Below, piece by piece: positions 33,289 to 64,000 of a DNA stretch of 64,000 nt. The notes under the pieces were generated by a model that did no database searches, was not told the DNA's origin, and saw only the letters and a list, made by a program, of their open reading frames with translations. The stretch is from Vulcanimicrobiia bacterium (GTDB lineage Bacteria; Vulcanimicrobiota; Vulcanimicrobiia; Vulcanimicrobiales; Vulcanimicrobiaceae): positions 1-64,000 of the forward strand of contig JAICWY010000004.1 in the NCBI GenBank assembly GCA_025934645.1, written 5' to 3'. Each line of letters begins with the position of its first letter. Positions within the stretch are counted from its first letter, which is position 1. The translations under genes were made by a program, and so were the position numbers.

Positions 33289-34602
33289 ATGTTCGAGGCC
33301 TCAGTTTATAACAAATGCGTGCGTTGCGGCCTCTGCTTGCCCACTTGCCCGACCTACCTGGAAACGATGACCGAGACGTCCGGACCGCGCGGACGCATCA
33401 GCCTCATCAAGGCGGTGGCGGAAGAGCGCCTGGATCTACTCTCGCCCGGGTTTGTGCATCAAATGTCCGAGTGTCTCGATTGCCGCGCGTGCGCTGCGGT
33501 GTGTCCGAGCGGGGTGAAATACGGCGAGCTCGTCGAGGAAGCGCGCGCGCAGATCGAAACGGCGCGGGAGCCGCAGCGCAGCCCGCTCGCACGTTTCTCA
33601 CGGTGGTTCGTACTTCGCGTCCTATTCGGCAATCTGGGTCTCATGCGCGGCGCCGCGAGCTTCATGCGCCTCTACCAGCGCAGCGGACTGCAGCGCGCGG
33701 TGCGCGCGTCCGGGGTCTTGCGTATGTTGAATCTCGAGCATGCCGAGTCACTCGCGCCGCGCATCTCGCAACGGTTTTTTGTGCCGCTCGATCAGCGCCT
33801 CGAAACCCCGGACGCGACGCATACCGTCCTGCTCCACGCGGGTTGCGTTATGCATGTGGCGTTCGCGCACGTCAACGAAGCCACCGTGCGCGTTTTGCAA
33901 AAAAACGGCTGTACGGTTCTTCTTCCATCGGCGCAAGGCTGCTGCGGCGCGATCGCCGTGCACGCGGGCGATATGGAGTTCGGCCGGGAGCTCGCAAAGC
34001 GCAATATCGCAGCATTCGAAGATTCGGGCGCGGATTTCTATTTGATCAACGCGGCGGGATGCGGCGCGGCACTCAAAGAGTACGGGCATTTGCTCAAAGA
34101 CGATCCCGCGTGGAGCGATCGCGCTTCCGCCTTTTCGGCGCGCGTGCGCGACGTGCTCGAATTCTTGGATGACATTGGATTGAACCGCGCGATCGGCGCG
34201 GTAGACGCGACCGTAACCTATCAGGATCCGTGTCATCTCGCGCACGCGCAGCGCATCACCGAAGCGCCCCGCCGCCTGCTGCGCAGCATCCCCGGCCTAA
34301 CCTTGCGCGAAATGGACGAGAGCTCCGTCTGCTGCGGCAGTGCCGGAATTTACAATCTCACGCAGCCGGAGATGTCACGCCGGCTCGGGACGCGCAAAGC
34401 GGAAAATGCCGCAGCAACGCAAGCAGAGATCGTCGCGACGGCCAATCCCGGCTGCGCGATGCAGGTCGCTGCTTACCTAAAGGAACGCGAAAGCCCGATG
34501 CGCGTCATGCACGTCATCGAGCTTATAGACGAGGCGTACGAAAATTACAGCGAGGCGATGAGCCGGTCGCGATCGCTCAGCGCCGCGTCCAGCGTACTAT
34601 AA
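33289..34602 (+). CDS. glcF: Glycolate oxidase iron-sulfur subunit (GlcF-like)
   Basis: GlcF passes electrons from the glycolate or lactate oxidising flavoprotein to the quinone pool. The 437-residue chain has two 4Fe-4S ferredoxin motifs (CVRCGLCLPTCP near residue 10 and CLDCRACAAVCPSG near residue 65), then two CCG domains with GCCGAIAVHAGD and SVCCGSAGIYNL. glcD and glcE are not nearby, so its partner lies elsewhere. A relative acting with a D-lactate dehydrogenase cannot be excluded. The ATG at 33289 is the first ATG next to the ferredoxin domain. Its 3' end overlaps the convergent STAS gene by 58 bp. Confidence 0.85.
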   Translation: MFEASVYNKCVRCGLCLPTCPTYLETMTETSGPRGRISLIKAVAEERLDLLSPGFVHQMSECLDCRACAAVCPSGVKYGELVEEARAQIETAREPQRSPLARFSRWFVLRVLFGNLGLMRGAASFMRLYQRSGLQRAVRASGVLRMLNLEHAESLAPRISQRFFVPLDQRLETPDATHTVLLHAGCVMHVAFAHVNEATVRVLQKNGCTVLLPSAQGCCGAIAVHAGDMEFGRELAKRNIAAFEDSGADFYLINAAGCGAALKEYGHLLKDDPAWSDRASAFSARVRDVLEFLDDIGLNRAIGAVDATVTYQDPCHLAHAQRITEAPRRLLRSIPGLTLREMDESSVCCGSAGIYNLTQPEMSRRLGTRKAENAAATQAEIVATANPGCAMQVAAYLKERESPMRVMHVIELIDEAYENYSEAMSRSRSLSAASSVL

Positions 34603-34919
34603 ACCGCGAAGATTCGCATGAGTCCCGTGATCGTCAAGAGGCGCTGAATGGCGCCTTCGTTTACGATCAGCCGCACGCGGCCGCCGTTTTCCAAAGCGCG
34701 GCGATGCGCGCCAATCAGCGCGCCAAGGCCCGTTGAATCGAGAAATTCGAGCTGCGAGAGATCCACGATGATCTCGTGTTTTCCTTCGTTCGCCGCTTCG
34801 ATCAGCGCCGCGCGAAGCGAGGGCGCCGTCGCGAGATCCAGACTTCCGCGCAAGCGATAGACGATTGCGTCTCCATCGTGCTCGGATTTAATGTCTACTG
34901 TCAAAGCATCGTGCGACAT
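34545..34919 (-). CDS. STAS-domain anti-sigma factor antagonist (SpoIIAA/RsbV-like)
   Basis: A 124-residue single STAS domain. FLDSTGLGALIG holds the serine (S62) that an anti-sigma kinase would phosphorylate in partner-switch systems. The ATG at 34919 is chosen: earlier sequence is arginine-rich and unconserved. No anti-sigma kinase or sigma gene is adjacent. A SigB/SigF-like sigma factor sits at 59.2 kb, but a link is only speculative. Divergent organisation is absent: the DUF1835 gene lies just upstream on the same strand, 10 bp away. Confidence 0.85.
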   Translation of the reverse strand: MSHDALTVDIKSEHDGDAIVYRLRGSLDLATAPSLRAALIEAANEGKHEIIVDLSQLEFLDSTGLGALIGAHRRALENGGRVRLIVNEGAIQRLLTITGLMRIFAVYSTLDAALSDRDRLIASL

Positions 34920-53116: not shown

Positions 53117-54496
53117 TTAGCGCGAGGGCGGTACGGTATTCGGATAAATCACGTGCGGCGTGATGAGGAACACCACCTCGTCACGCTCGTGCGTGCGCTC
53201 GCGGTTCCGGAAAATCTTTCCAATCACCGGAATATCGGAGAGCCCGGGCAGTTTTGAAACCGTCTGCGTGTCGACCTCGCGCAAGAGCCCGCCGAGCACG
53301 ATAGTTTGGTTATCGCCGACACGCAGTGTCGAGTCTATTTTCCTGTTCGCGATAACCGGATATCCGCCGACGAACCCTTGAATCGCGCTATACTCGGGAT
53401 GCATGTCCGCCGTCACGCTTCCATCGGAGCCGATCGTGGGAGTAAGGCGCAGCTTCACGCCGATGTCGACGAACTGCACTTGCTGGCTGCCCAGACGCGC
53501 GTCGTAATAGATGACCGGGTACGTTTGACCGATGAGCAGATCCGCTTCTTTGTTATTCAGCGTGACCAGCTTTGGCGTCGCCAAGATCTCCGCGCGTCCT
53601 TCGCTGACCAACGCGTTGAGCCGCGCATTAATCGCGATCGAATTGCGGGCGAACGCATACGTACCCGCACCGGATATCGGCTGTCCTGACAGATCGTAGC
53701 CGCCGAACTGGACGCCGACGTCGCTCTGCTCGTTGACGGGCTGCAGATCCGCCACGCGCACCTCGAAGAGCACTTGCGGGCTGGGCATGTCCATGCTTTT
53801 GACGAACTGCGAGGCGGCGCGTTGAACTTCGTCGTTCCCCGTCACGACGATTGCGTTCTGCCGGTCATCCGCCGCATAGGTGCCGTCGGGAAGAACGCCT
53901 TTGAGATTTGGCACCAGATCCGACGGCTTGATATACCGCAGCGCGTACACGTGCGCGAGGTTCCGGGTACCGTCGCCGTACGCCGGCGCGTCCAGCGCTG
54001 CGGTCAGCCGGCGCGCGCGATCGACCGTCTGCGCGTTGCCGGTCACGATGACGCTTGCGGTGCGCTTGTCCGGCACGATTACCGTGCCGTCCGGCAATCC
54101 GAGCGCGAGCGCTTTCGCAACGTCATCCGGGACAGCGTGCACGAGCGGAAACACGGCTGTTAGCGAACCGCGCGGATCGTCCATATCGGCATACCGCCGG
54201 TTCATCAGCGCGCCGGATCCGACGATCAGCACGCTGCCTTCTCTGCGGACTTGCAGATCGTGGGCGCGAGCAAGCACGGTGAGTGCCTCGTCGAGCGTTA
54301 CACCGTGCAGGTGCAACGTCACGCGTTCGGGTTTCAGTGAGTCGTCCGCAATGACGTTCGAACCCGATTCGGCCGCGAGCAGTGCGATCACGTCGGGTAA
54401 CGCGGCGTCGTGCACGTCGAGTGACATCCGTGGGGTCTCCGCAGCGGCGGGCACCGCAAGCAGCAACGCCAAGACCAATGCGATGCAGATTTTCAT
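53117..54496 (-). CDS. pilQ: Type IV pilus secretin PilQ-like
   Basis: Outer-membrane secretin through which the pilus exits. 459 residues: a signal peptide (LVLALLLAVPAAA), one STN-type and two secretin N domains (AVPDDVAKALALGLPDG; VYALRYIKPSDLVPNLKGVLPDG), then the secretin core with VTLNNKEADLLIGQTYPV and the final LPGLSDIPVIGKIFRNRE and VFLITPHVI. Smaller than E. coli-type PilQ and without AMIN domains. Last gene of the pilus operon; overlaps pilP by 4 nt. Confidence 0.93.
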   Translation of the reverse strand: MKICIALVLALLLAVPAAAETPRMSLDVHDAALPDVIALLAAESGSNVIADDSLKPERVTLHLHGVTLDEALTVLARAHDLQVRREGSVLIVGSGALMNRRYADMDDPRGSLTAVFPLVHAVPDDVAKALALGLPDGTVIVPDKRTASVIVTGNAQTVDRARRLTAALDAPAYGDGTRNLAHVYALRYIKPSDLVPNLKGVLPDGTYAADDRQNAIVVTGNDEVQRAASQFVKSMDMPSPQVLFEVRVADLQPVNEQSDVGVQFGGYDLSGQPISGAGTYAFARNSIAINARLNALVSEGRAEILATPKLVTLNNKEADLLIGQTYPVIYYDARLGSQQVQFVDIGVKLRLTPTIGSDGSVTADMHPEYSAIQGFVGGYPVIANRKIDSTLRVGDNQTIVLGGLLREVDTQTVSKLPGLSDIPVIGKIFRNRERTHERDEVVFLITPHVIYPNTVPPSR

Positions 54497-54975
54497 TTCT
54501 GCGCGTTTCCGATCCCGATGAAGGCGCCGTTGCGCAGCATTATGCCGCTGGGAAGCACCGCGCGTACGACGGAGCCTCCCAAAGCATCGCCGGCGTGGAT
54601 GACGCGAACGCCGCCGTTTTCTTCAACCAGCGCACGCGCATCTGCGCCTTGAACGATCGCCGTTACTCGCACCGTTGCGGCCGGAATCGGGATACCGGTT
54701 GACGCGCCTTGCACCACGCGCATGCCGGTCACGTCACGACTTGCTGCGCGTTGCGGCAAGGCAAACGGATCGCGGACAGGCCCGAGGCGCGGATAGGGTT
54801 GAAGGGCGCCCACGCGTGCCGCTTCCGAGCCGAACCGCCGATCGAATTGAACGCGCTGTGCCCTTGCTTCGAAAGACGAGCGGCCCGCGAGCGGCATCAA
54901 AACGGCGGGGATCGCGAGAAATATCGCCGAGGCGCATAACAATGCGCGCCGCGCCATATCACCGATCGGACGCAT
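54493..54975 (-). CDS. pilP: PilP-like pilus protein
   Basis: 160 residues from ATG 54975, with AAGGGA 8 nt ahead. One membrane segment (ALLCASAIFLAIPAVLMPLAG) is followed by a periplasmic RDPFALPQ motif and a beta domain near the end (VTAIVQGADARALVEENGG, VRAVLPSGIMLRNG), as in PilP or GspC homology regions. It differs from proteobacterial PilP by having a helix rather than a lipobox. Links PilO to the secretin. Confidence 0.75.
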   Translation of the reverse strand: MRPIGDMARRALLCASAIFLAIPAVLMPLAGRSSFEARAQRVQFDRRFGSEAARVGALQPYPRLGPVRDPFALPQRAASRDVTGMRVVQGASTGIPIPAATVRVTAIVQGADARALVEENGGVRVIHAGDALGGSVVRAVLPSGIMLRNGAFIGIGNAQK

Positions 54976-55546
54976 CGCTTTTCCCTTCATGAGCACGCGG
55001 TGTGAAACGGTACATCATCGCATCGATCACGGCGTCCAACATGGGCTCGACGCGCGTGCGGCGTTTTCCCGACGGAGCGAGCTGCGTGCGCCGGATCTCG
55101 AGCAGAGGCGTACGTTCCGACACGTCGATCAGGAATGCGAGCAGATCGCGGAACTGTCCCCGTACGCGGAGCGTTACCGGCACGGCTAAAAGCCCTGGTG
55201 TCCGGATGGATGTCGTCACTGCGGCCGGCGCCACCGCGGCCACCGTGGCGCGATGCGCGCGGGCCTGCCGCTCCAACGCTTCGAGCACTGCGGCCGTTGC
55301 CGACGGCAGCGACGCTCCTGCGCCGAAACGCTTTAAATCCGCCTCGGCGGCATCGCGCGCGGCGCGCAAACGGCCTGCTTCGCGTACGGTTCGTTCGTTG
55401 GCGGAGGTCATCGCGTAGAGCGATTCAACCGAGGTTTGCGCGCGGGCGATGCGCCGCTCGAAGTGATGCTGCACGTACCAGCACGCCCCGATCGCTAAAA
55501 GCGCGGACGCCGTCCACAGCGCGCGCATCGTATTGCAACGCTTCAC
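54959..55546 (-). CDS. pilO: PilO-like pilus assembly protein
   Basis: 195 residues: one membrane helix (LWTASALLAIGACWYVQHH), a coiled coil, and a ferredoxin-like domain (VTLRVRGQFRDLLAFLIDVSERTPLLEIRRTQL), the typical PilO pattern. Its GTG overlaps the pilN stop as GTGA. Confidence 0.85.
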   Translation of the reverse strand: MKRCNTMRALWTASALLAIGACWYVQHHFERRIARAQTSVESLYAMTSANERTVREAGRLRAARDAAEADLKRFGAGASLPSATAAVLEALERQARAHRATVAAVAPAAVTTSIRTPGLLAVPVTLRVRGQFRDLLAFLIDVSERTPLLEIRRTQLAPSGKRRTRVEPMLDAVIDAMMYRFTPRAHEGKSDASDR

Positions 55547-56103
55547 CGGCCGGCTCGACGCAGCCGTACCGTGTAGAGCATCTTCTCCACGCTGTTCGCG
55601 CCGTCGTCCAGTGTAGTGCTTTCCAAGGCCGGTTCGCCTAACCCGCGGCTGCGCTCGATGCCGCGTAGCACGGCGCCGACCGCCGGCAGCCCGGACGCGC
55701 GGCCTTCGAGCACGATATCCTCACCGTCGTACGCTATCGAGGTAAGCCATGCGTGCGACGGCAGCGCGTTTGCAATGCCGGCAAGGCGTTCGGCGTTGCG
55801 GTATCCGGATACCGTCATACGCCGCACGCGATCGTCCAATTCAATGATCTCGCGAATGCGCCGCAATTCGATCCCGGCGGATTGCAACTGCGTGCGGCTC
55901 TGCTCGTACCGCGCGCGGTACGCCGACTCCATCGCCAGGGACGAGTGCAACCGGCTCTCTTCGATCCCGCACGCACCCGCCGTGGCGAGCAGTACGCCGC
56001 ACAGTGCAGCCGCCGGCGCGTAAAACTCCGGCGGCATGCGCCATTGGGCGACTTTGCGAATAAGCGCCGGTTGCGCGGCATGCAGAAAATCAAACGAAAT
56101 CAC
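55543..56103 (-). CDS. pilN: PilN-like pilus assembly protein
   Basis: 186 residues from GTG 56103, overlapping the pilM stop as GTGA. The short cytoplasmic N-terminus (ISFDFLHA) takes the place of the INLLP peptide that binds PilM. One helix follows (YAPAAALCGVLLATAGAC), then a coiled coil and WLTSIAYDGEDIVLEGRASG. Fits between pilM and pilO. Confidence 0.85.
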   Translation of the reverse strand: MISFDFLHAAQPALIRKVAQWRMPPEFYAPAAALCGVLLATAGACGIEESRLHSSLAMESAYRARYEQSRTQLQSAGIELRRIREIIELDDRVRRMTVSGYRNAERLAGIANALPSHAWLTSIAYDGEDIVLEGRASGLPAVGAVLRGIERSRGLGEPALESTTLDDGANSVEKMLYTVRLRRAGR

Positions 56104-57038
56104 GGTCTGCTCCAGAGCGAGAGTCCGGCGGCGAGCGTCCAATCGGGTGCGCCGGATCGCATCACGTCCTCGGGATAGCTATCGCCGCGCAACACCTCGC
56201 ACACGGGTATCTCGAAAAACGCGCCCGTTGACGACTCCAGATCCGATGCCAGGCCCGGAAGGCGCGCGCCGTTCCCCGTCAGCGCAATGCGGGCGATGTC
56301 GTGTGTCCGGCGCGCTTGCGAAACCAGCGCCGTAATATCGGCAGCCAAAGCCGCGCGAGCGCGTTCGCCCGCGCCCGCCGTTCCTAGAATCCGTTTGCGC
56401 TTTTCGGCGGTGCGCTCGTCGATAGACAACTCACGCTCGATAGCGCGCGTCACGTCGGCACCGCCGTTGAAGGCCTGAAGCGTCACAGGCGCATGCGTTG
56501 TCCGCACGTGTAAGCTACTTCGTTGGTGCCCCACGTCGAGAATGGCGTCGTACGCGGGTAACGCGCGCAACAGCGCGCAGGCTTCATGATCGATCGCGAG
56601 CGGTCGAAGGCGAGCGCCGCGCAACACGTGCACTCTCGTGAAGACCGCATTTTGCCGCGCAACGCCCACGGCCCACAGATTGGCGGGCCGTTCCACTGCG
56701 TGCACGCGCACGACGGCCTCTTCTACGGGAAAATCCACGAATCGCTGCGCTTCGAAACGGGCAGATCGCTCGCGCTCGGCCGCCGGCATCTTGGGAAACG
56801 GCACCGGACGCATAACGGCATCCGGCTCGCCTAGCGCGCACACGCACCGGCGTTCCTTCGTGCCGAGTTCACGCACTGCATCGTCGATGAGCGCACACAA
56901 ATAACTCGCTTCCAAGGACGCGATATCGCGGACCGCAACCGCTCGAACGCGCGGACCGGCCGGCGTCATCTCCGCTTCTGCTACGCGGATGCGCGTCGTT
57001 CCGATATCCACCCCGAGCGGCAACCGTGCGCGCTTCAT
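56100..57038 (-). CDS. pilM: PilM-like cytoplasmic pilus ATPase fold
   Basis: 312 residues with an actin-like start LPLGVDIGTTRIRVAEAE. FPKMPAAERERSARFEAQRF and LTGNGARLPGLASDLES match PilM. The ATG at 57038 overlaps the pilD stop. Forms the ring under PilN-PilO. Confidence 0.88.
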   Translation of the reverse strand: MKRARLPLGVDIGTTRIRVAEAEMTPAGPRVRAVAVRDIASLEASYLCALIDDAVRELGTKERRCVCALGEPDAVMRPVPFPKMPAAERERSARFEAQRFVDFPVEEAVVRVHAVERPANLWAVGVARQNAVFTRVHVLRGARLRPLAIDHEACALLRALPAYDAILDVGHQRSSLHVRTTHAPVTLQAFNGGADVTRAIERELSIDERTAEKRKRILGTAGAGERARAALAADITALVSQARRTHDIARIALTGNGARLPGLASDLESSTGAFFEIPVCEVLRGDSYPEDVMRSGAPDWTLAAGLSLWSRP

Positions 57039-57646
57039 GCAGCCTGCCATGCAACGGCGGCAATCGTACCGGCGGCCAAGTACGGTGCGAAGCGCATCTC
57101 GGAGCCGCGCTGCATGCGCTGCAGCATAAGGCACGCAATGCCGGCCAGCGCTCCGGCTACGAACGCGATGCCCAGTGCGTACAGCGAACCGCGAACGCCC
57201 AGGCCGGCGCCGATGCACGCAGCAAGTTTTGCGTCTCCCAGGCCGATGCCGCGGCCTTGCGTCGCCGCATAAATTGCGAGTATTGCCCCGGCGGCGCACA
57301 ACGCACCAAGAATGGACGGCGCGAAATGGCCGTAAAGCCAACTTGCCGGGAGCAGCAAGCCGAGCGCCGGCAGCGTCACCGCATCGAAGACGAACCCATT
57401 CGCCGCATCCGTCGCGGCGCAAACGGCTACAGCCGCTGCAACGATTGCAAAGGTTGCCGCATCAGCAAGAAACGGATGCGTTACGAAGACTGCGCCGCCG
57501 GCGCTGATGCCTGCGAGTAAGAGCAGCGCGGGCGTTCGTTCGTGCAGATGTAACCGTATTCCGCAACGCCGCGCCCCGAGCGTCGCGCAGACGGCAAATG
57601 CGCAAACGGCTCCCGCTTCCACAACGCAAAACACCGGTGCGGTCAT
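57035..57646 (-). CDS. pilD: Prepilin peptidase (type IV leader peptidase), short form
   Basis: An aspartate protease of the inner membrane that trims prepilin. The two aspartates are D80 (AATDAANG) and D138 (GLGDAKL). 203 residues with about six helices. The N-terminal methyltransferase domain with four cysteines found in most PilD is absent, so methylation of pilin may not occur. ATG 57646 overlaps the TPR gene end. Confidence 0.88.
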   Translation of the reverse strand: MTAPVFCVVEAGAVCAFAVCATLGARRCGIRLHLHERTPALLLLAGISAGGAVFVTHPFLADAATFAIVAAAVAVCAATDAANGFVFDAVTLPALGLLLPASWLYGHFAPSILGALCAAGAILAIYAATQGRGIGLGDAKLAACIGAGLGVRGSLYALGIAFVAGALAGIACLMLQRMQRGSEMRFAPYLAAGTIAAVAWQAA

Positions 57647-58080
57647 CGGTTTCCTCGCGCGATCGCCGCAAATGCGGATGTCTGCGCATCGTGCGATACG
57701 CCGGCGGCGCGTTCCAGGTCTCGAGCCGCGAGCACGCGCCGCCCAAGCATGAGTTCGCACAACGCGCGATCCTGCAATACCGCAACGTCGCGGGGATGCT
57801 GCGACAAATAGCCGTTCGCGCGCTGCAGCACGCTGTAGAGCGTACCTGCGCTCCTGTGTTGCAGCGCCGTAAAAAGCACGCGATCGAGGGCCGCGCCATT
57901 CGAAGGATCGAGGGAAAGCGCGTGCCGGTACTTCACGAGCGCACCCGCCATATCGCCGCGAGAAAGCAGATCGTCGCCGCGCAGCATGATGCCCGTCGAG
58001 ATTTGCGTCCGGAAGAGCATTGCAGAGACGCCTATCGCCAACAGCACGATAGTCAATTCACGCGCACGCGATTTTTTCAC
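57643..58080 (-). CDS. Membrane-anchored TPR protein in the pilus operon
   Basis: 145 residues from GTG 58080, overlapping the CcdA-like gene as GTGA. One helix (LTIVLLAIGVSAMLFR) and then about three tetratricopeptide units (GDDLLSRGDMAGALVKYRHALSLDPSNGAAL; LQDRALCELMLGRRVLAARDLERAAG). It could fill the role of PilF/PilW or be a lineage-specific scaffold. Confidence 0.75.
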   Translation of the reverse strand: MKKSRARELTIVLLAIGVSAMLFRTQISTGIMLRGDDLLSRGDMAGALVKYRHALSLDPSNGAALDRVLFTALQHRSAGTLYSVLQRANGYLSQHPRDVAVLQDRALCELMLGRRVLAARDLERAAGVSHDAQTSAFAAIARGNR

Positions 58081-58685
58081 GCGAGCACCGCATAATAGCC
58101 GGCAAGCGCGAGCATGACGCCGGAGGTCACGAGCGCGGTGGCCCGCGCCGTCGCGAGCGCGGTAAATGCTGCAGCGCATTTTTGCGCCGCACCCGCAAGT
58201 CCGAGGAGAGGCAACGCATGGCCCGCCGCGTAGCACCCGAGCAACAGCGCCGCATGCGCAACCGTGCCGTTCGCGGCGGCGTAGGCGGTTAGCGCGAAAA
58301 TCACCGGCGTGCAGCACGGCGAGACGACGAGCGCCAAGGAAACGCCGAGCAGCAGTGCGGCGCCCGCGCTTGCTGCCGGACGGGTCGAGCACCGATCGCG
58401 GCATGTGCGCCGCACAAACGGCTCGAGCGCAGATGCCGCAAACGCGCAAGCGATTCCGGCATAAAGCAAATGCGAATACTGCAAGGCGCTTTGAAAGATC
58501 CAGGCCGTTGCGGCAAACGATGCGTAGCCAAGCACTAAACCGCCGCTGAACGCCGCAGCGAGCTTCATCGCTTCGGCCGGGGTTTTTCCGGAAGTGAGCC
58601 CCGCGACAGCGGCGAACCGCGGCGCCACGCATGGGCCTGCTGCGGTCAATACACCCGCGGTAAATGCGCCTACAGCATCGAACAT
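58077..58685 (-). CDS. CcdA/DsbD-like thiol-disulfide membrane transporter
   Basis: 202 residues, about six helices. Cysteines in the first and fourth helix, C19 (AAGPCVAPR) and C124 (VSPCCTPV), match the pair that carries reductant in CcdA. There are extra C95 and C99 in a loop. It sits between the pilin and TPR genes, within 2 bp of the pilin stop. The pilin has two Cys, so a role in its disulfide is likely but unproven. Confidence 0.85.
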   Translation of the reverse strand: MFDAVGAFTAGVLTAAGPCVAPRFAAVAGLTSGKTPAEAMKLAAAFSGGLVLGYASFAATAWIFQSALQYSHLLYAGIACAFAASALEPFVRRTCRDRCSTRPAASAGAALLLGVSLALVVSPCCTPVIFALTAYAAANGTVAHAALLLGCYAAGHALPLLGLAGAAQKCAAAFTALATARATALVTSGVMLALAGYYAVLA

Positions 58686-58687
58686 CG

Positions 58688-59167
58688 TTATTGGTTCTGC
58701 GCGGATACGGTCGTGAAGCCGGCTTGGTTATCGAACTTGATGTGCGTGTTCGCGGTCGTGCCGCCCGCGATTTTGGCGAGCGTTCCCGGATCGTGCGTAC
58801 CGGGACACCAAATTTGATATCCGGCGACGCCGCCGTTGCCGGCGTTGCTTTGCGTCTTCACCGTGTACGATCCGGGGCCCGCGGGGTCGGCCGGCGTTTG
58901 ATTGAGATAGCCCGTCAATCCAAGCGTTTCCACGTTGGTAGGCGTCGACGCCGCCGGATAGCTTCCGGTATCGGTGTAATACAGCTCGAGCGCCGTCGCA
59001 ATCATTTTGATGTTTCCCATGCACGCCGCCGTTTGCGTTTGTGCGCGGGCCCGCGTGAAGTTCGGTACCAGAATTGCGGCTAGGATGGCGATGATGGCTA
59101 CGACGACCATCATTTCGAGCAGCGTAAACCCGCGCTGACTCTCGTTCTTCGGCTTCGATCCGTTCAT
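58688..59167 (-). CDS. pilA: Type IV major pilin, PilA-like
   Basis: 159-residue prepilin. Cleavage at G13-F14 (QRGFTLLEMMVVVAIIAILAAI) leaves Phe at +1 and Glu18 at +5. C49 and C121 could form a disulfide. The C-terminal part is rich in Gly, Thr and Asn, as in other pilins. The single pilin gene in the operon: no minor pilin genes are near. Confidence 0.93.
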   Translation of the reverse strand: MNGSKPKNESQRGFTLLEMMVVVAIIAILAAILVPNFTRARAQTQTAACMGNIKMIATALELYYTDTGSYPAASTPTNVETLGLTGYLNQTPADPAGPGSYTVKTQSNAGNGGVAGYQIWCPGTHDPGTLAKIAGGTTANTHIKFDNQAGFTTVSAQNQ

Positions 59168-59186
59168 CAGATCGGATAGTGCCCGG

Positions 59187-59831
59187 TCACGCGCTTTTGA
59201 CGACCCGCTGCAACTGCATTTTTTTCAACGCGGTCCGATGCAAACGTGAAATATGTCTGCGCGAATACCCCAGACGCTGTGCGAGCTCCATTTGACTGTA
59301 CCCGCTGTATACAGCGAGCACGATCTTGCGCTCCACTTCCGAAAGCCGGCGCAGCGCGTCGTCGATGAATATGCGATCGTCGCGGTCGTCGAGCGTATAG
59401 CTGCACGGACGCAATTGATGCGGTTGCAGCGTTTCGATCGACTCCGGCACGGCGCCCTCGCGATAGCGCACGACTTCGTCGATTTCGGCGAGCGTCGCGC
59501 CCGTCGCGTCCGCGAGTTCCGCGCGCGAGGGCTCGCGCCCCAATTCGGCTATCAACCGGTCCGCCGCGTTTTGACAGCGACGTTCGAGCGCCCGAAGCCG
59601 GCGCGGTGCACGCACGAGCCGCTCGTGATCGCGCACGTAATGCATTAATTCGCCAACGACGAATAGCCATGCAAAGGCTTCGAACGGCGTCTGCAATTCC
59701 GGATCATAGCGATCGCAGGCCTTCAGCAATCCGATGGCCGCAATCTGCTCGATATCGGCGCGCTCGAATCCGGGGCGGCGGAACTTTCTTCCGGCACGCG
59801 CGCAAAGGTAATGATATTCTTCGAAAAGCAT
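59187..59831 (-). CDS. RNA polymerase sigma-70-family factor inside the pilus operon
   Basis: 214 residues. Region 2: ADIEQIAAIGLLKACDRYDP with FEAFAWLFVVGELMHYVRDH; region 3: ELGREPSRAELADATGATLAEID; region 4: LSEVERKIVLAVYSGYSQMELAQRLGYSRRHISRLH. No region 1, so group 3, close to SigB/SigF. Its ATG overlaps the pilC stop as TGATG and pilA starts 20 bp after it, so it is made with the pilus. It may feed back on pilA or drive other genes. No anti-sigma gene is next to it. Confidence 0.9.
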   Translation of the reverse strand: MLFEEYHYLCARAGRKFRRPGFERADIEQIAAIGLLKACDRYDPELQTPFEAFAWLFVVGELMHYVRDHERLVRAPRRLRALERRCQNAADRLIAELGREPSRAELADATGATLAEIDEVVRYREGAVPESIETLQPHQLRPCSYTLDDRDDRIFIDDALRRLSEVERKIVLAVYSGYSQMELAQRLGYSRRHISRLHRTALKKMQLQRVVKSA

Positions 59832-61048
59832 CACTTCATATTCCCGATCAGCGTGTAGAGCGGAATGAAAATGGACGAAACGATAAACGCTACGGCTCCG
59901 CCGAGCAACAGAATCATCGCGGGCTCCAGCATCGAACCCAGCGCGGAAAGCGCGGCCTCGAGGTCGGCCTCGTAATACTCGGCTACGCGCAGCAACATCG
60001 CATCGATGCAACCCGTCTCTTCACCGACGCGAACCATCTGAACGAACAAAGGATCGAAGAGCCGCGATGCGGACAGCGGCGAATGCAGCGATGAGCCGCC
60101 CGAAAGCGCCTCCTGTACTTGCGCAATGCAACCCCTGAGCGGCCCGCCGGCAACGCGCGACACACTCTCCAGAGCGCTGGTCATCGCTACGCCCGACTGC
60201 AAGAGCGAGCCGAGCGTGCGAGCGAACCTCGCGCCATGGGCTTTACGCACGATCGCGCCGGTAACCGGCAGTTTCCATGAAACCGCTTCAAGCAATGCCG
60301 CGCCCTGGGGCGTCGCGCGTACGGCATAAGCGGCGAGCGCAAACGCTGCTGCTGCAGCCGCCGCGAAAAGCATTGCGAGGGGCGAGCGCAGCGCAGTTCC
60401 GATGGAGACCAAGATGACCGTCGCTGCTGGGAGCGGCACGCGCATTTGCGCGTAAAGCGATTCGAACATCGGCACGATCGAGACGAGCAGAAACGTAATT
60501 AAGGCCAGGGCTGCTACGGCCACGACGGCCGGATAAGCCAGCGAGGCCGCGACCCGCTTTCGAACTGCGCTTTCGCGCTCCAAAAGCGTTGCAAGCCGTT
60601 CCAACACCTGCTCGAGCGTGCCGCCCGCCTCGCCCGCCGCGATCATTGCAGCGTACAGCGGCGGAAATTCTTTAGGATGCTGGCCGAACGCTTCGCTCAG
60701 CGAGTGACCGCTTTCGATGGCGGTTTCGACCGACGTCAATGCTTCGCCCAAACGCCTGTTACCGCACTGATCGCGAAGCACCGCGATTGCGCTTCGCAGG
60801 GGAACGCCTGCGGCGGCGAGCGTTGCAAGGGCGCGAAACTGCGGCGCGAGGCGCGCGCGTGAAAGCGTGCCGCCTTGCAACGCCGCCGCCACCGTTGCCG
60901 CCGGCGTTCCCGCGCACGATAGCGAAGTTACGAAAACCGCGCGCGTACGCAGCATGGCCAGGGCGCCGCTGTGAGACTTTGCTTCTATCGATCCGCGCAA
61001 AAGCTCACCTTGCGCGCTGCGCGCGGTGTAGTAGTAGAGGCTGCTCAT
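59831..61048 (-). CDS. pilC: Pilus platform protein PilC
   Basis: 405 residues, type II secretion F-family: two repeated domains with LATLLERESAVRKRVAASLAYPAVV and MVRVGEETGCIDAMLLRVAEYYE, and three membrane helices. The inner-membrane base that PilB and PilT act upon. Follows pilT by one base. Confidence 0.95.
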   Translation of the reverse strand: MSSLYYYTARSAQGELLRGSIEAKSHSGALAMLRTRAVFVTSLSCAGTPAATVAAALQGGTLSRARLAPQFRALATLAAAGVPLRSAIAVLRDQCGNRRLGEALTSVETAIESGHSLSEAFGQHPKEFPPLYAAMIAAGEAGGTLEQVLERLATLLERESAVRKRVAASLAYPAVVAVAALALITFLLVSIVPMFESLYAQMRVPLPAATVILVSIGTALRSPLAMLFAAAAAAAFALAAYAVRATPQGAALLEAVSWKLPVTGAIVRKAHGARFARTLGSLLQSGVAMTSALESVSRVAGGPLRGCIAQVQEALSGGSSLHSPLSASRLFDPLFVQMVRVGEETGCIDAMLLRVAEYYEADLEAALSALGSMLEPAMILLLGGAVAFIVSSIFIPLYTLIGNMK

Positions 61049-62128
61049 CTATGCGTGGTTCGCGGGGCCTTCGACTTCGTGCGGGCGAGCCGTAGCCGCG
61101 CGCGCATCGGCAAGGCAGACTTCACCCCGCATGACGAGTTCTGAAAGCGCCGATTCCAGCGTCTGCATGCCGGCGGACCGCGACGTGCTCAAGATATTAC
61201 GCAAGTGATGTATTTTTCCGTCGCGGATGACATTACGTACGGCATCGCTGGCGACCAAAACTTCGGCAGCGCTTCGCCGCCCGCTTCCGCACGCGCGCGG
61301 TATCAGGCGGACTCCGGCGATTCCAACCAACGTTTGCGCGATTTGGGCACGCACGCGATCCTGCGCCGAGGCGGGGAACGCCGAGGCAATGCGATCCACC
61401 GCCTGTGCGGTATCGCCGGTGTGGAGGGTCGCGAAGACCAAATGCCCGGTCTCCGCAGCGGTAAGCGCGGCGTGCATCGTCTCCGTGTCGCGCATCTCAC
61501 CGAGAAGAATGACATCCGGATCGCTTCGCAGCGCGCCGTAGATCGCGTCGGCGAAGGACGGCACATCGCGTCCCACTTCACGCTGCGTTACGATGCAGCG
61601 CCGCTGGGCGTGCACGAATTCGATCGGGTCCTCAATCGTGAGGATGTGCGCTGCCCGCGAGCGGTTAATCCGATCCGTCATCGCGGCAAGCGCCGTGGAT
61701 TTTCCGCTACCCGTCGGTCCGGTAACGATTACCAGTCCCTGCGGGTGCTCCGTAAAGGCGCTCACGGCAGGCGGCAGATGCAGCGTTTCAAGCGCGGGAA
61801 TGTCGACCGGAAGCAGACGCAGCGCGAGCGAGACGCCGTTTGCCGTGCGGTATGCATGAACGCGAAGATTGCACGAACCGCCCGGATTTCGGCTCTCCGT
61901 TGCATCGCCGGCACGCGTAAGCCGTTCTTGCGCTGCAGGGTCCAGTAGCGATTGCGCAAGCGTCTGCGTTTCATCCGCGTCGAGAGGCGAAGCGTCCACC
62001 ACGTGCAGTTCGCCATCGACGCGGAACGCGGGCGGCGCGCCGGGGCGTACGTGAATATCCGACGCGTTGCGCGCGTGCGCGACGCGCAGTAATTCTTCGA
62101 AACGCGCCGCCGCGAGGACGGAACTCAA
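61049..62128 (-). CDS. pilT: Pilus retraction ATPase PilT
   Basis: 359 residues; Walker A GPTGSGKST, Asp box RSDPDVILLGEMRD, His box ATLHTGDTAQAVDR, and near the end AVRNVIRDGKIHHL, the PilT mark that tells it from PilB. Overlaps pilB by 4 nt. Confidence 0.95.
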   Translation of the reverse strand: MSSVLAAARFEELLRVAHARNASDIHVRPGAPPAFRVDGELHVVDASPLDADETQTLAQSLLDPAAQERLTRAGDATESRNPGGSCNLRVHAYRTANGVSLALRLLPVDIPALETLHLPPAVSAFTEHPQGLVIVTGPTGSGKSTALAAMTDRINRSRAAHILTIEDPIEFVHAQRRCIVTQREVGRDVPSFADAIYGALRSDPDVILLGEMRDTETMHAALTAAETGHLVFATLHTGDTAQAVDRIASAFPASAQDRVRAQIAQTLVGIAGVRLIPRACGSGRRSAAEVLVASDAVRNVIRDGKIHHLRNILSTSRSAGMQTLESALSELVMRGEVCLADARAATARPHEVEGPANHA

Positions 62129-63534
62129 ACCGCCTCCTCCACCGGCAGAACGCGGCGTAATTCGTCCAGCGACGTGTCACCCAACCGAACCAGGCGTAGA
62201 CCTTCCGCGGGCATCGGCACGTACCCGCGCTCGAGCGCCATTTCGCACAACTGCACGCTCGAGGCGCCGCCCGCGATCGCGGTACGCATTTTATCGTCCA
62301 AGAACATCGCCTCGAAGAGCGCGGAGCGGCCGGAAAAGCCCGTCATGCCGCAAGCCTCGCACCCTTGCGCTGAGCGCGCGGCGCAGCGCCGGCACAACCG
62401 GCGCACCAAGCGCTGCGCGATTACCGCCGTTAGTCCGGCGGCCAACGTGTGACGCGCGACGCCAAGTTCGAGCAGTCGCTCCACACAGCGCGGTGCGTCG
62501 TTGCTGTGCAGCGTCGTCAGGACGAGTTGGCCGCTGAGTGAGGCCGAGGCTGCAACAGCGGCCGTTTCTTCGTCGCGCATTTCGCCGACCATAATTGCGT
62601 TCGGATCTTGGCGCATGAACGCCCGCAACGCCGAGGCGAACGTGACGCCCGCGCGGACGTTTACTTGTACCTGCGCGACACCCGGAATCGCGATCTCAAC
62701 CGGATCTTCGACGCTGCACAGATTCTGGCCCGGAGTATTGCGCGCCGCGAGAGCGGCGTATAGGGTCGTCGTTTTGCCGCTGCCCGTCGGACCGCAAACG
62801 ACGATGAAGCCATGCGGCGCGTGCACGGCCGCCGTAAATCGCGCAGCCAGCTCCGGCGGCATTCCAAGTGAATGCAAGTCGGGAATTCGCGTATGATTAT
62901 CGAGCAGGCGGATCACGAGTTTTTCGCCCGCAATCGTCGGCATCGAACTTACGCGGGCATCGATCGATCGACCCGACGTTTCGATCGGATACCGCCCGTC
63001 CTGCGGCTGACGGCGATCGGCTATATCCATTCCCGCCAGCAGTTTAATCCGGGAAACGACTTGCGCGTAGAGTTCGGCCGGCAGAGCGCGCACCTCGTGG
63101 AGGACACCGTCGACGCGTTGCCGCACCCGGCCGCCGCCTGCGCACGGTTCCACGTGCACGTCCGATGCGCGCGCGTTTGCGGCTCTGCTGTGCAGCGCAT
63201 CGAGTTCGCGGATCGCGGGCGCTTCGTCACCCTTACCGTACGCCGCACCGGCGTGCGGCGCATTCGCATACGCATCGCTCAAACGGGCGCGAATCGCTTC
63301 GCGAGACGCCTGTACCGTTCGGACGTGCATCCCCGTCGCAAAACGCACGCGGTCGATGGTTTCGCGGTCGGCCGCATCGGGCAAAGCGACCGTGATGGAA
63401 TTTCCGTCGCTGAAAAGCGAGAGGACGTCGTGGCGCAGCGCCAGCGAACGCGGTATACGGCGCAGCGCGTCGGCTTCTAAAGCGACGGCGGCAACGTCGA
63501 TAGATTCAAACGATCCCGTCTCGATTGCAGTCAC
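62125..63534 (-). CDS. pilB: Pilus extension ATPase PilB
   Basis: 469 residues from GTG 63534, about 100 shorter than usual, mostly at the N-terminus. Walker A GPTGSGKTTTLY, Asp box RQDPNAIMVGEMRDEETA, His box TTLHSNDAPRCVER and the zinc site CRRCAARSAQGCEACG. First gene of the operon. Confidence 0.95.
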   Translation of the reverse strand: MTAIETGSFESIDVAAVALEADALRRIPRSLALRHDVLSLFSDGNSITVALPDAADRETIDRVRFATGMHVRTVQASREAIRARLSDAYANAPHAGAAYGKGDEAPAIRELDALHSRAANARASDVHVEPCAGGGRVRQRVDGVLHEVRALPAELYAQVVSRIKLLAGMDIADRRQPQDGRYPIETSGRSIDARVSSMPTIAGEKLVIRLLDNHTRIPDLHSLGMPPELAARFTAAVHAPHGFIVVCGPTGSGKTTTLYAALAARNTPGQNLCSVEDPVEIAIPGVAQVQVNVRAGVTFASALRAFMRQDPNAIMVGEMRDEETAAVAASASLSGQLVLTTLHSNDAPRCVERLLELGVARHTLAAGLTAVIAQRLVRRLCRRCAARSAQGCEACGMTGFSGRSALFEAMFLDDKMRTAIAGGASSVQLCEMALERGYVPMPAEGLRLVRLGDTSLDELRRVLPVEEAV

Positions 63535-63609: not shown

Positions 63610-63741
63610 TGGTTTGGACATATTTCGCGCGCAAATCGCCTTAATGTCCGCAATTACACTGCTGCGGGCACATGCAACAGATCGCAAAATGGCAGTCTCA
63701 TATGTGCGAAACGCATATAAGTGCGGGAATACCGCGTGCAC

Positions 63742-64000
63742 ATGAAAAGTGTGACTATCGTCTGCCGCTTGAGCTCGCGCCACGGACTGGCCTACTACCG
63801 GCGGCTTCAAGAGGAATTGCCGAAGCGCGGGGTGTCCATTGCGGCGGCGCACATGGTGCGGCGCAGAAAAGAACTCAAAAAGCGCATACGCCAAGCCGTG
63901 CAATCCGGGGCCGGAACGATCGTCGTGATCGGGGGCGACGGAACGCAGACGGCCGCAGTGGCGGAGCTCGCGCACAAGCCTGCCGTCATGGCGGTTATCC
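63742..64000 (+). CDS. Diacylglycerol/lipid kinase family protein, N-terminal part
   Basis: Open from ATG 63742 to the window end, 86 residues. MKSVTIVCRLSSRHGLAYYR then TIVVIGGDGTQTAAVAEL has the GGDGT nucleotide motif of DAGK-type kinases (YegS/BmrU/DgkB), which phosphorylate lipids at the membrane. Divergent from the pilus operon. Confidence 0.8.
   Translation, partial: MKSVTIVCRLSSRHGLAYYRRLQEELPKRGVSIAAAHMVRRRKELKKRIRQAVQSGAGTIVVIGGDGTQTAAVAELAHKPAVMAVI

Follow-up and report, generated by a model that had tools for sequence, protein, structure and literature searches.

A sigma factor gene conserved in a type IV pilus operon and its predicted role in pilin gene transcription

The type IV pilus operon studied here carries, between pilC and pilA, a gene for a sigma factor (hereafter SIG), the kind of subunit that directs RNA polymerase to its start sites. 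We consider it highly probable, from sequence comparisons, that SIG is the pilin sigma factor of this pilus system, and that it reads the promoter GTCC-N16-GGGCAC; pilus components are likely made in a machine-first order. In this role SIG very probably activates the genes encoding the subunits of the pilus fibre, in a manner comparable to the activation of flagellin by the flagellar sigma factor. Confidence in this reading is held back by genomes that have the motif and no SIG, genomes that have SIG and no pili, a clade in which pilA lacks the motif, and the presence of other sigma factors. Control of type IV pili is usually attributed to sigma-54 with PilR, to two-component systems or to second messengers. 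To our knowledge, pilin-specific sigma factors are known only from cyanobacteria and have not been described as part of a pil operon.

The sigma factor gene

The window, meaning the whole 64,000-nucleotide stretch of DNA that was analyzed, belongs to one contig of a 2.64-Mb draft genome whose close named relatives are Candidatus Eremiobacterota. Coordinates of all features are collected in Table 1. The initial annotation had described a complete sigma factor gene with regions 2, 3 and 4 between pilC and pilA, joined to pilC by a TGATG overlap, and both statements were confirmed. The open reading frame is complete, and its product exceeds the Pfam cut-offs for sigma-70 region 2 (PF04542, 35.1 bits), region 3 (PF04539, 28.4 bits, a partial match) and region 4 (PF04545, 32.0 bits). 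Region 1.1 is absent, as in group 3 factors. At the overlap, the pilC stop codon (TGA, 59833-59831) runs into the SIG start codon (ATG, 59831-59829).

The best NCBIfam model for SIG is TIGR02980 (SigBFG; E 1.6e-39), against which it scores 135.9 bits versus a cut-off of 234. Relatives score 122-148 bits and the SigB-like paralog scores 281. Values were also below the cut-off for the FliA/WhiG model TIGR02479 (77.2 bits; cut-off 189.6) and the cyanobacterial SigF model NF005644 (93.5 bits; cut-off 261). The SigB/SigF/SigG model far outscores those for FliA or RpoD, and structural relatives in the PDB are SigB/SigF-like. Because it falls under every subfamily cut-off, SIG is best named a divergent SigB/F/G-like factor. 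Its putative -10 box, GGGCAC, is similar but not identical to the GGGTAT of SigB/F/G-type factors, and that SIG uses this box we infer from the co-variation described below. The comparison made here covers two of the 17 sigma region-2 matches in the own genome.

Table 1. Features of the pil operon and its surroundings in the window
Feature	Position	Strand	Basis or remark
Diacylglycerol-kinase-type lipid kinase gene, runs beyond window	63721..64000	+	PF00781 33.9 bits
Perfect GTCC-N16-GGGCAC, within CTTAATGTCC..., directed away from pilB	63646..63671	+	50 nt before divergent lipid kinase gene
pilB	62125..63534	-	TIGR02533/TIGR02538, E 1e-130
pilT	61049..62128	-	TIGR01420 403 bits, above cut-off
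pilC	59831..61048	-	GspF/PilC models, E 1e-87 to 1e-97
TGATG overlap of pilC stop and SIG start	59829..59833	-	Direct sequence reading
SIG, sigma factor gene, 214 aa	59187..59831	-	Divergent SigB/F/G-type group 3 sigma factor
Putative SIG-dependent pilA promoter	59179..59204	-	-35 GTCG 59204-59201, 16-nt spacer, -10 GGGCAC 59184-59179
pilA, prepilin with N-terminal methylation motif	58688..59167	-	PF07963 37.7 bits, TIGR02532
CcdA/DsbD-like membrane protein, operon-conserved	58077..58685	-	PF02683 34.6 bits
TPR protein, one membrane anchor, operon-conserved	57643..58101	-	TPR matches
pilD-like prepilin peptidase, start uncertain	57035..57700	-	PF01478 43.8 bits
pilM, pilN, pilO, pilP, pilQ	53117..57050	-	PF11104, PF05137, PF04350 (weak), PF00263
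STAS-domain protein	34545..34919	-	Real, 24 kb from pil operon

The pil operon and its conservation

From pilB (63534) to pilQ (53117), all genes lie on the minus strand in the order pilB, pilT, pilC, SIG, pilA, CcdA-like, TPR, pilD, pilM-N-O-P-Q. The operon is type IVa-like, with pilB, pilT, pilC, a prepilin gene, a prepilin peptidase gene and pilM-N-O-P-Q all together. A sigma homolog of some kind was present in 99 of 99 family genomes, with a close homolog in most. Gene order in relatives was compared, as the initial annotation had proposed, using 58 family loci read with their context. In 38 of these pilC lies directly upstream of SIG, in 8 more SIG stands ahead of pilB, and the remaining 12, one second copy among them, have no intact pil operon around SIG. 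The pilC/SIG junction of most relatives is a short overlap, mostly of 4 nt and of the ATGA type. The shared ancestral order is ftsQ-ftsA-ftsZ-thyX, pilB-T-C-sigma-pilA-ccdA-tpr-pilD-pilM-N-O-P-Q, aroC-aroK-aroB-priA, where ftsQ, thyX, aroK, aroB and priA were named by eye from sequence. Since 38 of 58 loci share it, the adjacency of SIG and the pil genes is not due to chance, and SIG is a conserved member of the pil operon.

In loci of the clade with SIG before pilB (L033, L035, L060, L066 and L073), a lytic transglycosylase gene separates SIG from pilB. A pair of genes for a response regulator and a histidine kinase runs divergently from SIG there. At one further locus (L067, genome G027), a second sigma paralog, 42% identical to the SIG of the window, lies beside the same regulator pair in surroundings without pil genes.

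A putative promoter at pilin genes

The motif GTCC-N16-GGGCAC was first seen by eye in SIG-pilA gaps of relatives placed side by side, and was then tested on other sets. In the window the putative promoter ends 11 nt before the pilA ATG, and its -35 box lies within the last codons of SIG. Of the SIG-pilA gaps from 28 genomes, 68% reach a score of 11.5 or more out of 13 for the motif pair, compared with 0.6% of shuffles; where a gene other than pilA comes after SIG, 7% reach this score. When pilA is located apart from SIG or several kilobases downstream of it, GGGCAC is found upstream of pilA in 12 of 12 genomes. One genome with SIG after pilC (G086) has GGGCAC 33 nt before pilA and 10 nt before two other prepilin genes. 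In the clade with SIG before pilB, pilA itself is without the motif (G061, G097).

In the own genome, GTCN17GGGCAC occurs 32 times and a reversed control 8 times. Intergenic matches are those at pilA, at the site upstream of the lipid kinase gene and at two unlinked prepilin genes (10-11 nt before the start); the others are in coding sequence. At a fourth prepilin gene, GGGCAC lies 10 nt ahead of the start and the -35 box is a near-match. The -10 box GGGCAC is thus located 10-11 nt before the start of all four own-genome prepilin genes, three of which are unlinked to SIG. Among 28 genomes, GGG[CA]A[CT] is present 8-13 nt before a start at 49 of 78 prepilin genes (counted from table rows). For 971 other genes of the fetched loci, the box occurs at that distance from the called start in 1.4% and from any nearby start in 3%. 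Due to this short distance between box and start codon, pilin messages would be nearly leaderless. Genome-wide counts of the exact motif gave no clean contrast between sigma-plus and sigma-minus genomes. Because most matches fall in coding DNA, the motif was judged instead by its position relative to start codons.

A shared promoter motif, which the initial annotation had suggested seeking near genes for competence or adhesion, is present at pilA and at unlinked prepilin genes. Together with the conserved adjacency, it strongly supports the earlier proposal of a dedicated, pilus-linked sigma factor placed ahead of the major pilin. Random placement of SIG in relatives and targets without pil genes, either of which would have spoken against that proposal, were not seen: linkage to the operon is conserved, and putative promoters were found at prepilin genes.

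SIG without pili and other candidate targets

SIG is not exclusively a pilus factor. The 18 genomes of genus g5 gave no pilT or pilM match, and two members tested had no prepilin gene. SIG is kept in place there between the ftsZ-thyX block and aroC, from which it appears that pil genes were removed from both sides and that SIG stayed. The median dN/dS for ten g5 SIG genes is ∼0.18, which indicates that SIG is still under purifying selection. Two other genomes (G075 and G047) likewise retain SIG after pil gene loss. Of the initial annotation's term “dedicated”, the tie to the pilus stands and exclusiveness does not. Eight g5 loci (L052, L054, L062, L064, L065, L068, L069 and L099) carry a gene for a GT87-type membrane protein divergent to SIG, accompanied in three loci by a perfect motif.

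Elsewhere the whole operon and SIG are gone together (G064, G050, G067, G068 and G069). Assembly gaps were rejected as the cause, since the region from ftsZ to aroC is contiguous in all of these genomes; G060 and G049, where contigs end, were left out of the loss inference. A pilQ fragment (83% identical) persists in G064 and a pilB/pilT-family fragment (90%) in G067, which suggests that loss of the operon was recent.

Several genes besides those for pilins are candidate targets. One likely target is the gene for an OmpR-type response regulator, which is paired with a histidine kinase; it begins 11 nt after the motif in four genomes (G025, G054, G064 and G050) and is divergent to SIG in the clade with SIG before pilB. 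The lytic transglycosylase gene and, in the three g5 loci, the divergent GT87 membrane protein gene are also likely targets. In genome G066, two loci (L224 and L228, 1365-1490, minus strand) encode two copies of a 41-aa protein, METFDIELYALICESLE... and MEAFDVELYILVCESLE..., 11 nt after a perfect motif. The one copy tested had no Pfam match; the protein could be a small regulator. A gene after pilQ with a GGDEF-like start, recognized by eye (cluster c95, MADKAP...DIDRLTGALTREAL), is found in G058 (L085, 15645-16340) and G059 (L086, 16699-17397) with a -10 box 8-13 nt before the start, making a link to c-di-GMP possible.

Such putative targets (response regulator, lytic transglycosylase, lipid kinase and g5 GT87 protein), as well as the retention of SIG under selection in g5 and its persistence in G075 and G047, would fit a general or envelope-stress sigma factor that counts pilins among many targets and owes its place in the operon to history. 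We regard this as unlikely, since prepilin genes account for nearly all intergenic matches in the own genome, few perfect intergenic matches per genome occur elsewhere, and SIG is missing from the five genomes in which the entire operon is gone.

No RsbW/SpoIIAB-type anti-sigma partner was recognized in the loci read around SIG, in agreement with the earlier remark that no anti-sigma factor is present. The CcdA-like and TPR proteins were considered for this role, but nothing supported it, and both resemble proteins of the envelope or of assembly. The STAS-domain protein had been suggested as an antagonist belonging to the same switch. Nothing was found that links it to the pil operon or SIG, and no histidine-kinase-like anti-sigma gene was recognized beside its gene.

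Co-variation of SIG and the promoter

Which sigma factor reads the motif was judged from two clades in which specificity appears to have changed. In clade g37+ (g37 together with its allies), the region 4.2 helix of SIG reads GLSQSHVSKLL in place of GYSRRHISRLH, and region 2.4 is unchanged. At pilA and unlinked minor pilin genes of this clade, the -35 box is GCATAG-like in 12 of 15 sites and GTC in 1 of 15, and the -10 box stays GGGCAC. In the main clade, the -35 box is GTC at 33 of 46 sites and takes the GCATAG-like form at 0 of 46. In clade g12, region 2.4 of SIG reads GEVRHAFRD in place of GELMHYVRD; here the -10 box is GGGAAC in 8 of 8 sites, and the -35 box is still GTC in 7 of 8. Note that each of the two co-variations counts as a single evolutionary event, although several promoters display it. 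A single shift that appears at several unlinked promoters at once is what a change in a trans-acting reader would produce. To the extent that sequence can answer, these two independent shifts of the boxes with the DNA-reading segments of SIG make SIG very likely the reader of GTCC-N16-GGGCAC before pilA and the scattered minor pilin genes.

The motif could instead be read by another SigB/F-like sigma factor, such as the canonical family-wide paralog, leaving SIG to do something else. Four genomes without SIG (G064, G050, G067 and G069) do retain the motif at prepilin or regulator genes, and the paralog is of the type that reads GGGTAT-like -10 boxes (PMC2758279). However, its two recognition segments stay constant from the main clade to g37+ (identity 1.00 and 0.94), and yet the -35 box changes along with region 4.2 of SIG (identity down to 0.36). 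In addition, the motif is located where the SIG gene ends. These observations leave the alternative improbable. The g12 case is the weaker of the two, because the SigB-like paralog also diverges in that clade. That SIG is a mere passenger, inserted in the operon by chance and playing no part in pilus control, can be dismissed almost entirely: neighbor order does differ in a minority of loci, but most genera of the family conserve SIG, together with overlapping frames, a linked motif and co-variation.

Control of the machine operon

Upstream of the operon, a SIG-type promoter directed toward pilB was found in 1 of 39 genomes (0.81 expected), and GGGCAC in that orientation was not enriched (3 versus 5.3 expected). 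Activation of its own operon by SIG was rejected for lack of this enrichment. The sequence upstream of pilB contains housekeeping-like boxes, TTGnnA and GATAAA, identified by eye. With no SIG-type promoter of its own for the machine operon, SIG likely runs a second stage, with the machine made first and the pilins after. The “positive or timing loop” of the initial annotation therefore fares unevenly: the simplest positive loop is not borne out, and a hierarchy of machine and sigma factor followed by pilins is the better reading.

On the other strand, 16 of 39 genomes (0.7 expected) carry a SIG-type promoter that is directed away from pilB and lies about 75-170 bp upstream of it. It takes the form [C]TTAAT-GTCC-N16-GGG[CT]AC, often with CTTAAT ahead of GTCC. 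The lipid kinase that follows this promoter in the window is a 303-aa protein in one locus (L155). The promoter also occurs in about ten genomes in which the neighboring gene is co-directional with pilB, where the divergent transcript would be non-coding. Production of a conserved small protein was rejected, as no conserved open reading frame comes after the promoter. The divergent SIG-type promoter supports a link back to the operon, and one might guess that it adds feedback by interference or supercoiling.

Proposed mechanism

In the proposed scheme, the machine operon, SIG included, would be transcribed first from a housekeeping-type promoter (TTGnnA and a -10-like box) by another form of the polymerase. 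SIG, made with the machine, would then turn on pilA and the minor pilin genes. The resulting order would be machine first and subunit second, as with FliA and flagellin. SIG would probably also read the promoters of the OmpR-type response regulator and of a few envelope genes, and the divergent promoter by pilB may feed back on the operon. A fuller version is offered tentatively and is rather doubtful as a whole: FliA-like stage control in which SIG, produced alongside the machine, drives every pilin gene from a near-leaderless promoter, the conserved divergent promoter (16 of 39 genomes), likewise fired by SIG and back to back with that of the machine operon, acts as feedback that may tell the operon of pilin making, and SIG is redirected to new targets where pili have been lost.

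Significance

These results place SIG, with a defined candidate promoter, in the machine operon of a whole family of the little-studied phylum Eremiobacterota. The natural swaps of specificity make promoter recognition by group 3 sigma factors testable residue by residue. The results also raise the question of whether pilin-specific SigB-type sigma factors arose once, before the split of Cyanobacteria and Eremiobacterota, or twice. Vulcanimicrobium alpinus, a cultivated species, moves towards light with type IV pili (PMC9758169). Being cultivated, it would permit a direct test of the role of SIG.

Comparison with known systems

A limited literature search turned up no account of a pil operon that includes a sigma gene. 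Bacillus subtilis SigB is a general stress factor that works with RsbW/RsbV. By sequence it represents the family closest to SIG, and its -10 box GGGTAT resembles GGGCAC (PMC2758279). For SIG, no RsbW/RsbV partner was recognized in the loci read around it.

FliA (sigma-28) is expressed with the flagellar machine and used for late subunit genes such as that for flagellin. By analogy, SIG is encoded with its machine and would serve late subunit genes. SIG differs from FliA in being of the SigB/F/G type (77 bits for the FliA model versus 136), in its machine and promoter boxes, and in that no FlgM-like anti-sigma factor was found near it. In Bdellovibrio, FliA is an alternative sigma factor that transcribes the type IVb flp1 pilin operon (PMC5430801). 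There a flagellar sigma factor took on Tad pilins, whereas SIG has its own gene within a type IVa-like pilus operon. In Synechococcus elongatus, competence, there linked to type IV pili, requires the SigF paralog SigF2 (PMC7125226). Its main target shown is dprA, and the portion of that source consulted describes no placement with pil genes (PMC7125226), in contrast to the position of SIG inside the operon.

The nearest known relative in function is the cyanobacterial SigF-pilA1 pair. SigF of Synechocystis PCC 6803 belongs to the SigB-like group 3 factors; both the major pilin and pili require it, and it recognizes the pilA1 promoter directly (PMC2758279, PMC8546353). The cyanobacterial SigF core promoter consists of TAGGC (-32) and GGTAA (-12), and sigF is autoregulated (PMC2758279). 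In the SigJ-SigC-SigF cascade of Nostoc, pilA depends strictly on sigF, whose very small regulon yielded no consensus (PMC6495340). SIG is likewise a SigB-like group 3 factor, and it is predicted to transcribe the major pilin gene. It differs in its putative boxes, GTCC-N16-GGGCAC rather than TAGGC/GGTAA, and in the near absence of SIG-type promoters on the pilB strand upstream of its operon. It differs further in that its gene lies inside the pil operon and that the minor pilins share the promoter of pilA.
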